Shown: positions 35,659 through 39,251 of the stretch, in pieces
How the letters are laid out: each line of letters starts with the position of its first letter
Numbering within the stretch: the stretch's first letter is position 1
Assembly: GCF_036898825.1 (NCBI RefSeq)
Contig: NZ_JARUND010000002.1
Coordinates: 2,046,001-2,110,000 of the forward strand
Direction: 5' to 3'
From: Streptomyces sp. B21-083
GTDB lineage: Bacteria; Actinomycetota; Actinomycetes; Streptomycetales; Streptomycetaceae
DNA length: 64,000 nucleotides
Notes under the pieces: model-generated
Database searches by the model: none
What the model saw: only the letters and a program-made list of their open reading frames with translations
Told to the model about the DNA's origin: nothing
Made by a program: the position numbers and the translations under genes

Positions 35659-36432
35659 ATGAGCCCGCGTTCCGGCACCCAGAGCTCCGAGATCCCCGAG
35701 ACCCTGGTGCGCGACCACACGATCTACGCCTGTGTGATGGGCTCGCGCGCCTTCGGCCTGGCCACGGACGGCAGCGACACGGACAGGCGCGGGGTCTTCC
35801 TCGCTCCCACTCCCCTGTTCTGGCGCTTCGAGAAGCCGCCCACGCATGTGGAGGGCCCGGCGGAGGAGCAGTTCAGCTGGGAGCTGGAACGCTTCTGCAC
35901 TCTGGCTCTGCGGGCCAACCCGAACATCCTGGAGTGCCTCCACTCGCCTCTCGTGGAGTACGCCGACGACACCGGCCGTGAACTCCTCGCCCTGCGCGAG
36001 GCGTTCCTCTCCCGCCAGGCGCACGAGACGTTCGCGCGCTACGCGCTCGGTCAGCGCAAGAAGCTGGAGGCCCACGTCCGCGTCCACGGCGTCCCGCGCT
36101 GGAAACACGCGATGCACCTGCTGCGCCTCCTGATGAGCTGCCGCGACCTGCTGCGCACGGGCACACTGACGATCGACGTCGGCGACGAGCGCGGCCCGCT
36201 GCTGGCGGTGAAACGGGGCGAGGTGGGCTGGCCGGAGATCGAGTCCCGAATGAACCGCCTGGCGGAGGAAGCCGAACTGGCCTCGCGCACCAGCCCGCTC
36301 CCCGAGGAACCGGACCGCCCCCGCGTCGAGGACTTCCTGATCCGCACCCGCCGAACCTCAGCCCACCACCCGGGCCCGTACGACGAGGTCGTCCAGGGCG
36401 TCGTACGCGGTAGGGGCATCCGGCAGCCCTGA
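35659..36432 (+). CDS. RlaP/YcgL-family nucleotidyltransferase, copy 1
   Basis: 257 residues from ATG 35659. The nucleotidyltransferase core is clear: YACVMGSRAFGLATDGSDTDRRGVFLAP has the GS and DxD motifs, followed by FSWELERFCTLALRANPNILECLHSP and HAMHLLRLLMSCRDLLRTG. The family (PF10127) is a minimal nucleotidyltransferase which, in Burroughs and Aravind's work, is named RlaP and predicted to act in RNA repair. Its last 75 bp overlap the 3' end of a second, convergent copy. No ribosome site is obvious. The start is 22 bp after the Rieske stop, but function suggests membership of the next locus. Confidence 0.82.
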   Translation: MSPRSGTQSSEIPETLVRDHTIYACVMGSRAFGLATDGSDTDRRGVFLAPTPLFWRFEKPPTHVEGPAEEQFSWELERFCTLALRANPNILECLHSPLVEYADDTGRELLALREAFLSRQAHETFARYALGQRKKLEAHVRVHGVPRWKHAMHLLRLLMSCRDLLRTGTLTIDVGDERGPLLAVKRGEVGWPEIESRMNRLAEEAELASRTSPLPEEPDRPRVEDFLIRTRRTSAHHPGPYDEVVQGVVRGRGIRQP

Positions 36433-37119
36433 GGCGGCCTGCGCGTCGTCCAGTAGGCGGTGCAGCCGCTCCACATCGGCCGCCACGCGCGCGTGGCCTA
36501 CATCGGCCGCCCCGTGTTCCTGCTCGGCCTTGGCCGCGACGAGTTCGGGCAGATACACGGGGGCCTCGCCGATCTCCCCGACGAGCGTGGGCAGATGGGC
36601 CCGCACCTCGCCACTGCGCATCAGATGGACGCCGGTGAGCAGCACGCGGAACGTGTAGAGCAGTGGCTTGAGTTCGCCGGTCTTCTCGAAGAGCCGCCAC
36701 TGCGTCACCGCGAAGCCTCTGTAGTGGTGCGCGTGGTGGCCGGTGAGGACACCGGGGGCGAGCGCGGCGAGTTCCCGGTGCGTGTCGGACGTGTGCACGA
36801 CCAGCGGGGACAGCAGCTGCTCCAGCACATAACCGTTGCGGCGCAGCAGCAGCCGTACGAACTTGCGCAGATCGTGGGTGACCAGGTCCAGTTCGACGCC
36901 GTCCCGCTCCCACATCCGCGAGCGGGTCTCCTCCGGCTCGCGGAGACCGACCAGGTCGGCGGTCGGCAGGAGATGGACGCCCCGGAGGTCCACATCCGAG
37001 TCGCGGGACGGGAAGCCGTAGAGGTGGGCGCCCGACACGGTGGCGAAAAGCACCGGGTCGGGCTGCTCGGCGACCACGGACGTCAGGTCGAGGTCTGTGA
37101 GATCCAGGGCGTCGCGCAT
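36358..37119 (-). CDS. RlaP/YcgL-family nucleotidyltransferase, copy 2
   Basis: 253 residues from ATG 37119. The core is PVLFATVSGAHLYGFPSRDSDVDLRGVHLLP: SG in place of GS, and the DxD pair intact. It is followed by the family blocks VELDLVTHDLRKFVRLLLRRNGYVLEQLLSPLVV and LKPLLYTFRVLLTGVHLM. It is a divergent paralogue of copy 1, and the two genes meet tail to tail with 75 bp of antisense coding. It begins 3 bp after the DraG-type stop (37123), so the three genes NrtR-like, DraG-like and this one form one leftward operon. Substrate unknown; RNA ends or nucleotides are plausible. Confidence 0.82.
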   Translation of the reverse strand: MRDALDLTDLDLTSVVAEQPDPVLFATVSGAHLYGFPSRDSDVDLRGVHLLPTADLVGLREPEETRSRMWERDGVELDLVTHDLRKFVRLLLRRNGYVLEQLLSPLVVHTSDTHRELAALAPGVLTGHHAHHYRGFAVTQWRLFEKTGELKPLLYTFRVLLTGVHLMRSGEVRAHLPTLVGEIGEAPVYLPELVAAKAEQEHGAADVGHARVAADVERLHRLLDDAQAASGLPDAPTAYDALDDLVVRARVVG

Positions 37120-37122
37120 CCG

Positions 37123-38145
37123 TCAAGCGTCCCAGAGCGCGCCCAGTGTCTGCAGGTCACCCCCGTACTCGATGCGGTCCGCCCAGGGAGTCGGCCAGGC
37201 GTCGGTGCCGTGGTGGGCGCCGGCGAAGGCTCCGGTCAGGCAGGCGATCGAGTCCGAGTCGCCGGAGGTGCAGGCCGCCCGGCGCAGGGCTGTGAGGGGC
37301 TCGCCCGGGAAGAGCAGGAAGCACAGCAGGCCGGTGGCGAGGGCCTCTTCGGCTGTCCAGCCGGCGCCGGTGGCGAGGCAGGGGTCGTCCTCGGGCGAGG
37401 CCGTACGGACGGCGAGCTGGAGCTTGTCCAGGATCGCCAGGCACTCGTCCCAGCCGCGGGCGATGAAGTGCTCGGGGCTCGGATCGTGGCTGTGCGTCCA
37501 CAGGTCGCCCAGCCAGCGGTGGTAGTAGTGGCTCCGGCTCTCGTGCGCGTAGGTACGCAGCAGGGTCACCAGCCCGGCCGGTTCGGCGCCCTGGGCGAGC
37601 AGCCGTACGGCGTGTGCGGTGAGGTCGGACGCGGCCAGCGCCGTCGGGTGGCCGTGGGTGAGCGCGGCCTGCAACTGGGCGGCGCCCGCGCGCTGTTCGT
37701 CGCTGAGGGTCGCGATCAGGCCGAGGGGCGCGACGCGCATGTTGGCGCCACAGCCCTTCGAGCCGATCTGGCTGGCCTCCTGCCAGGGCAGCCGCTCGTT
37801 CTCCAGCAGGTCGCAGGCGACCAGGCAGGTGTGGCCCGGCGCCCGGTTGTTGTCCGGTGACCGGTACCACTTCACGAACTCCTCGCGCACCGGCCGTTCC
37901 ATCCCCGCCGGGGCGAGCAGCCCCCGGTCCATCGCCGCGCGCAGCCCGTGGGCGAGCGCCAGCGTCATCTGGGTGTCGTCAGTGACGAACGCGGGCGTGG
38001 GCAGCTCCATGCGCCGCCACGGCCCGCACTTGGCGAGGATGGACGGGATGTCGTTGAACTCGGTCGGGAAGCCCAGGGCGTCACCGAGCGCGAGCCCGAT
38101 CAACGCCCCGCTAGCGGCGCGCTTCCTGACGGTCGTGGTGGTCAT
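37123..38145 (-). CDS. DraG-type ADP-ribosylglycohydrolase
   Basis: ATG 38145 overlaps the stop of the Nudix gene (ATGA), giving 340 residues. The family signatures are present: SGALIGLALGDALGFPTEF at the N-terminus, FVTDDTQMTLALAHGL (about 53-68) with the Asp pair that binds Mg, GCGANMRVAPLGL in the middle, and SGDSDSIACLTGAFAGAHHG near the C-terminus completing the metal site. The enzyme should remove ADP-ribose from a protein, nucleic acid or small molecule. The pairing with an ADP-ribose-sensing NrtR-type Nudix protein and two nucleotidyltransferases suggests NAD/ADP-ribose or RNA-end metabolism. Confidence 0.92.
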   Translation of the reverse strand: MTTTTVRKRAASGALIGLALGDALGFPTEFNDIPSILAKCGPWRRMELPTPAFVTDDTQMTLALAHGLRAAMDRGLLAPAGMERPVREEFVKWYRSPDNNRAPGHTCLVACDLLENERLPWQEASQIGSKGCGANMRVAPLGLIATLSDEQRAGAAQLQAALTHGHPTALAASDLTAHAVRLLAQGAEPAGLVTLLRTYAHESRSHYYHRWLGDLWTHSHDPSPEHFIARGWDECLAILDKLQLAVRTASPEDDPCLATGAGWTAEEALATGLLCFLLFPGEPLTALRRAACTSGDSDSIACLTGAFAGAHHGTDAWPTPWADRIEYGGDLQTLGALWDA

Positions 38146-38978
38146 GCGGGGCGTCCTTCCGGTGACGTGGGAGACGGTGACGAAGGGGACGGCGAGGAGG
38201 GGGACGGTGAGAACGGCGGCGGGGCCGGCGACGCCGACGTGGTCGGGCGCAGCAGCGGCGGGTGCAGGGTGGCCGCCGTGCCCGCGCGGTACAGCGCGGC
38301 GGGTTTGCCCCGGCCGCCGGTGAGGCGCGCGGCGCCCGGCACGGGCTCGACGAAGCCCGGGGTGGCGAGCACCTTGCGGCGGAAGTTGGGTGGGTCGAGC
38401 GCGGTGCCCCACACGGTCTCGTAGACCTGCCGCAGCTCGCCGAGGGTGAACTCGGGCGGGCAGAAGGCGGTCGCGATGCAGGAGTACTCCAGCTTGGCGC
38501 CGACCCGGTCGTGGGCGTCGGCCAGGATGCGGTCGTGGTCGAAGGCGAGCGGCTCGAGCGCGTTGTACCGCAGCCATTGGGCCTGTGCCGCGTCGCCGCC
38601 GCCGTGCGGTTCGGGCGCGTGCGGCAGCAGCGCGGCGAAGGCCACCGACACGACCCGCATTCTCGGGTCGCGGTCGGGCTCGCTGTAGGTGCGCAGCTGC
38701 TCCAGGTGCAGCCCGGACACGTCCGACAGGCCGGTCTCCTCGGCGAGTTCACGCCGGGCCGCCGTCTCCGCGGACTCGTCGGGCAGGACGAACCCGCCGG
38801 GCAGCGCCCAGCGGCCCGCGTACGGTTCGTGACCGCGCTCGACGAGCAGCACGTGCAGCGCGCCCGCGCGCAGGGTGAGTACCGCCAGATCGACGGTGAC
38901 GGCGAAGGGTTCGAAGGCGTACTTGTCGTACCCCTCCGGGGCCTGGCCCCGAGCCGCTCCGTTCACAGGTGCGGTCAT
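38142..38978 (-). CDS. NrtR-type Nudix regulator
   Basis: I start at ATG 38978 (AGGGGGG ten bases upstream); 278 residues. The N-terminal Nudix domain has GGFVLPDESAETAARRELAEETGL, a box with the key Glu residues, and the C-terminal half (FTLGELRQVYETVWGTALDPPNFRRKVLATPGFVEPV) is the winged helix that binds DNA in NrtR proteins. The tail is a Ser/Pro low-complexity run. NrtR senses ADP-ribose and controls NAD synthesis or ADP-ribosylglycohydrolase genes. Two palindromes just upstream (39010-39040) are likely its autoregulatory operators, controlling the DraG and nucleotidyltransferase genes downstream. Confidence 0.87.
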   Translation of the reverse strand: MTAPVNGAARGQAPEGYDKYAFEPFAVTVDLAVLTLRAGALHVLLVERGHEPYAGRWALPGGFVLPDESAETAARRELAEETGLSDVSGLHLEQLRTYSEPDRDPRMRVVSVAFAALLPHAPEPHGGGDAAQAQWLRYNALEPLAFDHDRILADAHDRVGAKLEYSCIATAFCPPEFTLGELRQVYETVWGTALDPPNFRRKVLATPGFVEPVPGAARLTGGRGKPAALYRAGTAATLHPPLLRPTTSASPAPPPFSPSPSSPSPSSPSPTSPEGRPA

Positions 38979-39009
38979 GCCCACCCACCCCCCTGCGGTG
39001 ACTCTTTAT

Positions 39010-39040
39010 GGTCACCATGACCAATAGTCATACCGACTAT
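39010..39040. promoter_or_regulatory. Two adjacent palindromes, likely NrtR operators
   Basis: GGTCA-CCA-TGACC (39010-39022) and ATAGTC-ATACC-GACTAT (39024-39040) are both perfect and have centres 16 bp apart. They begin 31 bp before the Nudix start codon. An outer, 11-of-12 match inverted repeat CTCTTTATGGTC / GACTATAAAGAG embraces both. This A/T-rich island stands out from its G/C-rich surroundings. Confidence 0.7.
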
Positions 39041-39214: not shown

Positions 39215-39251
39215 AACGGCCGGTCCCGGAGCAGCTCCGGGACCGGCCGTT
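39215..39251 (-). terminator. Terminator of the parA-scp-rsuA operon
   Basis: A perfect 16-bp stem AACGGCCGGTCCCGGA / TCCGGGACCGGCCGTT with a 5-nt loop, then TTCG on the minus strand. It lies 23 bp after the rsuA-type stop. Confidence 0.85.

Follow-up and report, generated by a model that had tools for sequence, protein, structure and literature searches.

A candidate ADP-ribose-responsive operon joining NAD salvage to RlaP nucleotidyltransferases in Streptomyces

What brings a regulator of the ADP-ribose-sensing type, an ADP-ribosylglycohydrolase and two nucleotidyltransferases of a putative RNA-repair family together at one place on a Streptomyces chromosome? The question arises from a 64,000-nucleotide stretch of Streptomyces sp. 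B21-083 (contig NZ_JARUND010000002.1, positions 2,046,001 to 2,110,000; the window), in whose sequence two tandem palindromes stand above a leftward operon, nrtR-draG-rlaP2, with rlaP1 opposite. The answer we favour, and to which we give about an even chance of being right, is that the locus is an ADP-ribose-responsive recovery operon, in which a nicotinamide adenine dinucleotide (NAD) salvage operon has been combined with an RNA-repair nucleotidyltransferase. Directly observed are the order and overlaps of the genes, the conserved palindromic box and its association with nrtR, the catalytic residues, and the Hen1/Pnkp context and co-occurrence of RlaP. The features concerned, with lengths in amino acids (aa), are as follows.

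35659..36432, forward strand: rlaP1, 257 aa, Pol-beta-type nucleotidyltransferase of orthologous group R1 (PF10127, 115 bits, 4.7e-33)
36358..37119, reverse strand: rlaP2, 253 aa, nucleotidyltransferase of group R2 and last gene of the operon (PF10127, 183 bits, 1e-53)
37123..38145, reverse strand: draG-like ADP-ribosylglycohydrolase of the ARH/DraG superfamily, 340 aa (PF03747, 216 bits, 8.4e-64)
38142..38984, reverse strand: nrtR-like Nudix-winged-helix regulator, 280 aa (NUDIX, 79.7 bits, 2.6e-22; NrtR_WHD, 53.1 bits, 3.7e-14)
39009..39023, no strand: operator 1, TGGTCACCATGACCA, a perfect match to TRGTCANNNTGACYA, conserved at the operon head in relatives
39025..39039, no strand: operator 2, TAGTCATACCGACTA, one mismatch to TRGTCANNNTGACYA, 16 bp from operator 1

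Coordinates and profile matches agree with a preliminary description of this DNA, which had claimed a leftward NrtR-DraG-RlaP2 operon under paired palindromes, with an ATGA overlap (4 bp, nrtR/draG) and a 3 bp gap (draG/rlaP2), facing RlaP1. The two rlaP genes are convergent, their 3' ends overlapping by 75 bp, and are the two RlaP genes found in the strain's 10.5 Mb genome; draG is one of 8 PF03747 matches there, and nrtR one of 2 NrtR_WHD matches. Between rluB and aroH the window encodes DUF6529, Rieske, RlaP1, RlaP2, DraG and NrtR proteins and one protein without a Pfam match. A TATAGT picked out by eye in the leftward reading of operator 2 may be a -10 box.

The meaning of this arrangement becomes clearer among its relatives. 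In an evenly sampled set of 101 Streptomyces genomes, from which 100 regions were fetched around RlaP/DraG matches, RlaP occurs in 85/101 and a DraG orthologue (E 1e-50 or better) in 82/101. An orthologous locus, defined by the orthologous draG together with rluB, aroH or tyrA on one stretch, was recovered 78 times; no more than 5 kb from draG, 67 of these loci have RlaP1, 44 RlaP2 (counting fragments), 67 NrtR, 34 NadR and 31 PnuC. In Streptomyces this locus belongs to the core chromosome and is ordered scpB-rluB-[pnuC-nadR]-nrtR-draG-[rlaP2] facing [rlaP1]-[Rieske]-[DUF6529], then aroH-tyrA; sigma-70-type and MFS-transporter genes (Pfam in locus L077) instead lie between rluB and nrtR in some genomes. 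At 31/78 loci the operon opens with pnuC-nadR, for nicotinamide-riboside import and conversion to NAD, and a domain check at one such locus (L095) returned PF04973 for PnuC (198 bits) and, for NadR, AAA_28 (99 bits) together with a cytidylyltransferase-like domain, and verified the NrtR and DraG domains too. Four-bp overlaps join pnuC to nadR (31/31), nadR to nrtR (29/34) and nrtR to draG (59/67), and draG and rlaP2 are spaced by 3-4 bp in 32/40 co-directional pairs. All 34 loci carrying pnuC and/or nadR have nrtR, and all 11 loci lacking nrtR also lack pnuC-nadR. Judged from this gene order, NrtR is in many relatives a regulator of NAD salvage. Where pnuC-nadR is absent (44 loci), nrtR persists at 33 and the box at 27 of those 33, so control of draG, with or without rlaP2, may be worth keeping in itself. 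Presence of pnuC-nadR requires 5-7 parsimony changes on a Streptomyces tree without outgroup.

A second set, made of the best 80 of 584 named loci by similarity to RlaP2 and hence biased to near relatives, comprises 50 NrtR-DraG-RlaP2-RlaP1 loci (Streptomyces scabiei 87.22 among them), 14 in which no NrtR was detected (some of them close to a contig end), 9 headed by an MFS gene, 2 that include PnuC-NadR and 5 others. The box occurs within one mismatch in 54 of the 62 scorable loci of this set.

At the 78 orthologous loci the box TRGTCANNNTGACYA stands at the operon head in 60/67 with nrtR and in 0/11 without, which bears out the earlier claim of palindromes above the NrtR operon. The clean 0/11 was derived from 17 DraG-headed upstream regions, of which L136, L156, L170, L171 and L257 are not NrtR-less standard loci and L091 has an nrtR missed in gene calling, with a degenerate box. 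Given this distribution, together with per-locus shuffles, the window palindromes are unlikely to be chance matches. By first gene of the operon, the box is found within one mismatch at 31/31 pnuC-headed, 2/3 nadR-headed and 28/33 nrtR-headed loci, the window included. In relatives the box thus stands ahead of NAD-metabolism genes, as expected of NrtR, while in the window it precedes nrtR itself; because the same palindrome heads pnuC-nadR operons and tracks nrtR, it is very probable that those of the window represent the box at which NrtR acts in an NAD-salvage operon. Two further perfect TRGTCANNNTGACYA matches in the window genome were set aside as chance, both falling inside predicted coding sequences. 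The one-mismatch operator pattern gives 63 sites per strand there against 28 for its reversed control, and since only part of these sites was inspected, there may be a wider NrtR regulon. The second NrtR-like gene of the genome, at C1:2481475 (L040), lies beside a frame read as glycogen-debranching-like, for which no Pfam match was obtained; this second regulator may control sugar metabolism.

The window NrtR carries an N-terminal Nudix domain and a C-terminal NrtR winged helix, both above cut-off, and scores 116 bits against NF050029, the equivalog for ADP-ribose-responsive repressors, whose curated cut-off is 400; it is thus related to that equivalog without belonging to it. Its sequence relatives in the structure database are AraR (5bs6) and a Nudix-family entry (3gz5), which we take to be the Shewanella NrtR. 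The Nudix box is intact in 67/67 members of the NrtR cluster, so the Streptomyces regulator may also break down its own ligand. NrtR of Streptococcus sobrinus controls pnuC-nadR and is released by ADP-ribose (PMC12735969), as is mycobacterial NrtR (PMC6800001). With these systems the Streptomyces relatives share the Nudix and winged-helix architecture, the palindromic box before pnuC-nadR and the operon layout, whereas the S. sobrinus and mycobacterial regulators are reported to have lost a proper Nudix box (PMC12735969, PMC6800001), the Streptomyces operon adds draG and often rlaP2, its box is unlike the mycobacterial one, and the window locus has no pnuC-nadR.

At this locus the window strain has nrtR-draG-rlaP2 only. 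The sole PF04973 gene of its genome was considered as a nicotinamide-riboside PnuC and rejected, as it sits between riboflavin genes (Lum_binding; DHBP_synthase + GTP_cyclohydro2), and PnuC-type nicotinamide-riboside import consequently appears absent. At this locus pnuC-nadR was presumably lost. With no pnuC-nadR, and with the other perfect boxes intragenic, NrtR here seems to act chiefly on its own gene, draG and rlaP2.

The hydrolase belongs to the PF03747 superfamily by score and by its metal-site motifs. Among the 84 members of its cluster the patterns TDDT, DSDS-type and GDxxG-type, which we presume to be metal-site motifs, occur in 59, 67 and 80. A nitrogenase-regulating DraG was rejected, the TIGR02662 (dinitro_DRAG) equivalog scoring 72 bits against a cut-off of 337; relatives by sequence in the structure database include DraG (2woe, 3g9d) and ARH3 entries. 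From gene order, we take SCO1766 to be the probable S. coelicolor orthologue. SCO1766, a DraG, is listed as uncharacterised in PMC5087735. Another S. coelicolor protein of the ARH family, SCO5809, distinct from the window DraG, strips ADP-ribose from RNA phosphate ends, and ADP-ribosylation of 5' RNA ends is made by a KptA/Tpt1-type enzyme (both PMC11833690). As a KptA/Tpt1-family gene is present in the window genome, a chemical link between ADP-ribose removal and RNA ends would, by analogy with SCO5809, be available. The same paper describes in Deinococcus radiodurans a ligase-PARG-PNKP operon, DRB0100-DRB0098, which likewise encodes an ADP-ribose hydrolase with RNA/DNA end-repair enzymes; its hydrolase is a PARG macrodomain protein, in contrast to DraG/ARH here, and its repair enzymes are a ligase and a kinase, in contrast to RlaP. 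NrtR is not named in the main text of PMC11833690 (0 occurrences).

RlaP1 and RlaP2, at 115 and 183 bits, lie far above the PF10127 cut-off of 23. They represent two old and well-separated orthologous groups (94 R1 and 60 R2 sequences aligned). The predicted metal-binding triad of RlaP1 is D40, D42 and E70 (D, D, E in 94/94 R1 sequences), and that of RlaP2 is D42, D44 and D78 (D42 and D44 in 98%, D78 in 100% of R2 sequences), the role of the triad being our assumption from the Pol-beta superfamily. A search of solved structures by sequence gave no match for RlaP2 beyond one at chance level (E 0.28), and a structure prediction from a 19-sequence alignment reached a mean predicted local distance difference test score of 58.6, with residues 1-99 below 50. 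In a class-level sample RlaP occurs in 113/393 genomes, 75 of them outside Streptomyces, and 60 neighbourhoods from 59 of those 75 were compared. R1 and R2 occur together in 16/60, as an adjacent tandem in 13 (7 with a 4 bp overlap) and apart on the same strand in 3; adjacent pairs in Streptomyces are convergent in 40/41. The exception (L156, G035:C8) lies elsewhere in its genome, as a tandem R1-R2 with a 4 bp overlap, next to a divergent DraG that is only distantly related (28% identity). In another genome, G041, pnuC-nadR-nrtR-draG occupies its usual place without RlaP (C90, L127) and RlaP1-RlaP2 lie on a 12.5 kb contig (C197, L126), hinting that the pair moves as a unit, or at misassembly. 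Viral contigs gave 1 relative of the R2 group, RlaP2 has only remote kin in phages (no more than 31% identity among the 20 of 92 phage records listed), and the plasmid collection gave matches in 7 records, including one from Nonomuraea and one from Embleya, the latter without annotation at the match.

Burroughs and Aravind reportedly predicted that RlaP (PF10127) acts in RNA repair, and a part in replacing lost nucleotides has been predicted for the family. The preliminary description took up that link, and evidence for it was found entirely away from the window locus, in Deinococcus gene order and in co-occurrence with Pnkp. On a Deinococcus ficus plasmid the order is Hen1 > R1 > R2 > one hypothetical > Pnkp, on a D. 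gobiensis plasmid Hen1 > R1 > R2 > Pnkp, and on a D. taeanensis plasmid Hen1 > R1 > R2 (Hen1 and Pnkp confirmed by TIGR04074/TIGR04075 in D. ficus, by record annotation in the other two). BLAST identity to RlaP1 is 48% for the nucleotidyltransferase that comes first in these runs, and to RlaP2 51-54% for the one that follows. A fourth Deinococcus match is partial and without Hen1/Pnkp context, and an archaeal match is without such neighbours. The D. taeanensis plasmid (L391) also carries an annotated tRNA-His guanylyltransferase Thg1 family gene ~1 kb ahead of Hen1-R1-R2. In two actinomycete loci R1-R2 lie ~3 kb from Pnkp-Hen1 (TIGR04074/TIGR04075 confirmed in L217; L214 alike), and in L242 a third-group RlaP is divergent beside Hen1-Pnkp (TIGR04074/TIGR04075 confirmed). 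Outside Streptomyces 64 genomes have both RlaP and Pnkp, 11 RlaP only, 30 Pnkp only and 244 neither (Fisher p 5e-35, uncorrected for shared ancestry like all Fisher tests here), so that Pnkp is present in 64/75 RlaP-positive and 30/274 RlaP-negative genomes. The corresponding counts are 37/1/0/6 (p 1e-6) for the 44 Streptomyces of the class-level sample and 83/2/10/6 (83/85 against 10/16, p 1.5e-4) for the 101 Streptomyces, Pnkp being called at a best hit under 1e-100 throughout the class-level sample, inside and outside Streptomyces, and under 1e-60 in the 101 genomes, thresholds chosen post hoc. RlaP is thus associated with an RNA ligase in relatives and by co-occurrence, though not at the window locus: measured against the Pnkp/Hen1 repair system of PMC4411300, R1-R2 lie inside Hen1/Pnkp runs in Deinococcus, while at the window locus hen1 and pnkp are absent, the pnkp pieces being on contig C1 and the window on C2. 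That paper gives the in vivo substrates of this repair as unknown (PMC4411300).

Taken together, these observations suggest two modules. One would be an NrtR-controlled nicotinamide-riboside salvage operon, pnuC-nadR-nrtR-draG, in which NrtR would occupy the TRGTCANNNTGACYA boxes and repress transcription until ADP-ribose, its probable ligand, released by NAD breakdown or by DraG de-ADP-ribosylation, lifts it off; the derepressed operon would then refill NAD and strip ADP-ribose from modified macromolecules, the putative substrates of DraG. The other would be the RlaP1/RlaP2 nucleotidyltransferase pair of a Pnkp/Hen1-type RNA repair, restoring nucleotides missing at broken RNA ends ahead of sealing by the Pnkp ligase. 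In Streptomyces rlaP2 closes the first module and is faced by rlaP1, and in the window strain the main targets of NrtR would be its own gene, draG and rlaP2, the product of the last having a presumed role in RNA repair. That all of this acts as a single-operon alarm seems to us somewhat unlikely: NAD breakdown or an ADP-ribosylating attack would raise ADP-ribose, NrtR would be released, and from one transcript PnuC-NadR, where present, would refill NAD, DraG would strip ADP-ribose from proteins or RNA ends, and RlaP2 with RlaP1 would rebuild nibbled RNA ends for Pnkp/Hen1 ligation.

Several observations weigh against a recovery operon that includes RNA repair. Outside Streptomyces RlaP is not a neighbour of DraG or NrtR: around the 60 RlaP loci DraG occurs in 1, NadR in 0, a partial PnuC-like match ~7 kb away in 1, and NrtR-profile matches in 4, all weak and Nudix-like. 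Within Streptomyces RlaP and DraG are associated (77/8/5/11 over the 101 genomes, p 1.3e-6). As this tie is seen in Streptomyces alone, whose gene order is passed down by descent, the genes may share a locus through inheritance and nothing more, and a common RlaP-DraG function is no more than a possibility. DraG does not track Pnkp (p 0.17), and the missing correction of the Fisher tests for ancestry counts on the same side. The regulator gene nrtR is missing from 11/44 loci without pnuC-nadR and 0/34 with them, a pattern that binds it more closely to salvage than to draG-rlaP2. Within Streptomyces RlaP2 has a patchy distribution (25 parsimony changes over 85 tips against a mean of 28.5 after shuffling, on a tree that scores L091 as NrtR-less and broken rlaP2 copies as absent) and is thus an accessory member of the operon. 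It is fragmented or shortened in L073, L075, L076 and L084, although the matches to DraG and RlaP1 there cover most of each protein, as if RlaP2 were in course of loss. In the window strain pnkp itself is in two pieces ~87 kb apart on the same strand (G000:C1:2271445-2272863 and 2359485-2360609; L388, L389), so the RNA-repair pathway may be off there.

One alternative is a plain NAD-homeostasis operon, in which the handling of NAD and ADP-ribose falls to NrtR and DraG, joined by PnuC-NadR at the loci that have them, while the RlaP genes are neighbours by inherited order and rlaP2 is expressed by read-through without shared function. The pnuC-nadR-nrtR-draG operon of relatives, a box tied to nrtR and not to RlaP, the restriction of nrtR loss to loci without pnuC-nadR, the absence of these neighbours from RlaP outside Streptomyces and the patchiness of RlaP2 all speak for it; the tight draG-rlaP2 spacing, the RlaP-DraG association (though one deletion can take linked genes) and the persistence of nrtR and box in 27/44 loci without pnuC-nadR do not, and we regard this explanation as rather doubtful. 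The preliminary reading of an ADP-ribose/RNA-end unit holds in part: the operon, the tie of the palindromes to nrtR and the link of RlaP to RNA repair stood, but the operon of many relatives starts with pnuC-nadR and thus with NAD salvage, the RlaP1/RlaP2 pair is also found apart from DraG and NrtR, and RlaP2 is accessory. MenT/AbiEii nucleotidyltransferase toxins offer a different analogy, by which RlaP1 and RlaP2 would be toxins held in check at the locus and not repair enzymes. Pfam describes the family as Pol-beta, and the genes are convergent and overlapping; against that, Hen1/Pnkp repair genes form the nearest gene neighbourhoods that are informative, RlaP co-occurs with Pnkp, and the families around the 60 RlaP loci mostly reflect local synteny, none recurring widely (antitoxins were not searched for) except an S-adenosyl methyltransferase family, which is present at 17 loci and has no evident connection in function, which leaves the toxin explanation very improbable indeed.

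An anti-viral role is improbable, though less so. Here DraG would remove phage-added ADP-ribose, the Nudix factor would free the operon, and RlaP would be a variable RNA-repair add-on, in the manner of the systems centred on ADP-ribosylglycohydrolase (ARG) for which PMC9503650 predicts an ARG with a Nudix/WYL regulator and without a paired ADP-ribosyltransferase, actinobacteria included. The locus does share the ARG and the Nudix regulator, and a scan of eight proteins here turned up no transferase domain. Unlike those systems, in which such partners are common though not universal, the window locus has no phosphatase, chaperone or nuclease partners in view (no rhodanese-type phosphatase, TY-chaperone, vWA, SseB or restriction endonuclease between rluB and aroH by Pfam, TY-chaperone and ARPP not having been searched with models of their own), and it is conserved core chromosome, not a fast-changing island. 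The main text of PMC9503650 does not name RlaP (0 occurrences).

Should the single-operon alarm be real, RNA repair in Streptomyces would be gated by NAD status; that one NrtR-type regulator probably controls both draG and rlaP2 hints at such a tie. By placing an RlaP enzyme under a regulator of ADP-ribose-sensing type whose operator is defined, the locus opens to experiment both the predicted role of RlaP and the question of what Pnkp/Hen1 repair acts on, and is triggered by, in nature. Conservation of the R1-R2 pair across Actinomycetota and Deinococcota points to two distinct nucleotidyltransferases cooperating. Each part of the locus belongs to a known kind, and the combination, in which DraG and RlaP2 join an NAD-salvage operon under NrtR control opposite RlaP1, was not found in the literature searched, which did not cover Rodionov et al. 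2008 or Burroughs and Aravind 2016.

Two minor observations concern the surroundings. At the break in the window strain's pnkp, near a Hen1-like frame, lies a phage integrase-family frame (PF00589, 53 bits), and an integrative element seems to sit inside the gene. Splits of pnkp also occur in G025:C1:1456772-1467989 and G006:C7:554978-564747, after about residue 80 and with 7-9 kb between the pieces, and pnkp may be a repeated insertion target in Streptomyces. In the window a perfect 18 bp inverted repeat at 39215-39251, directly past the rluB stop codon, is probably the terminator of the rluB operon.

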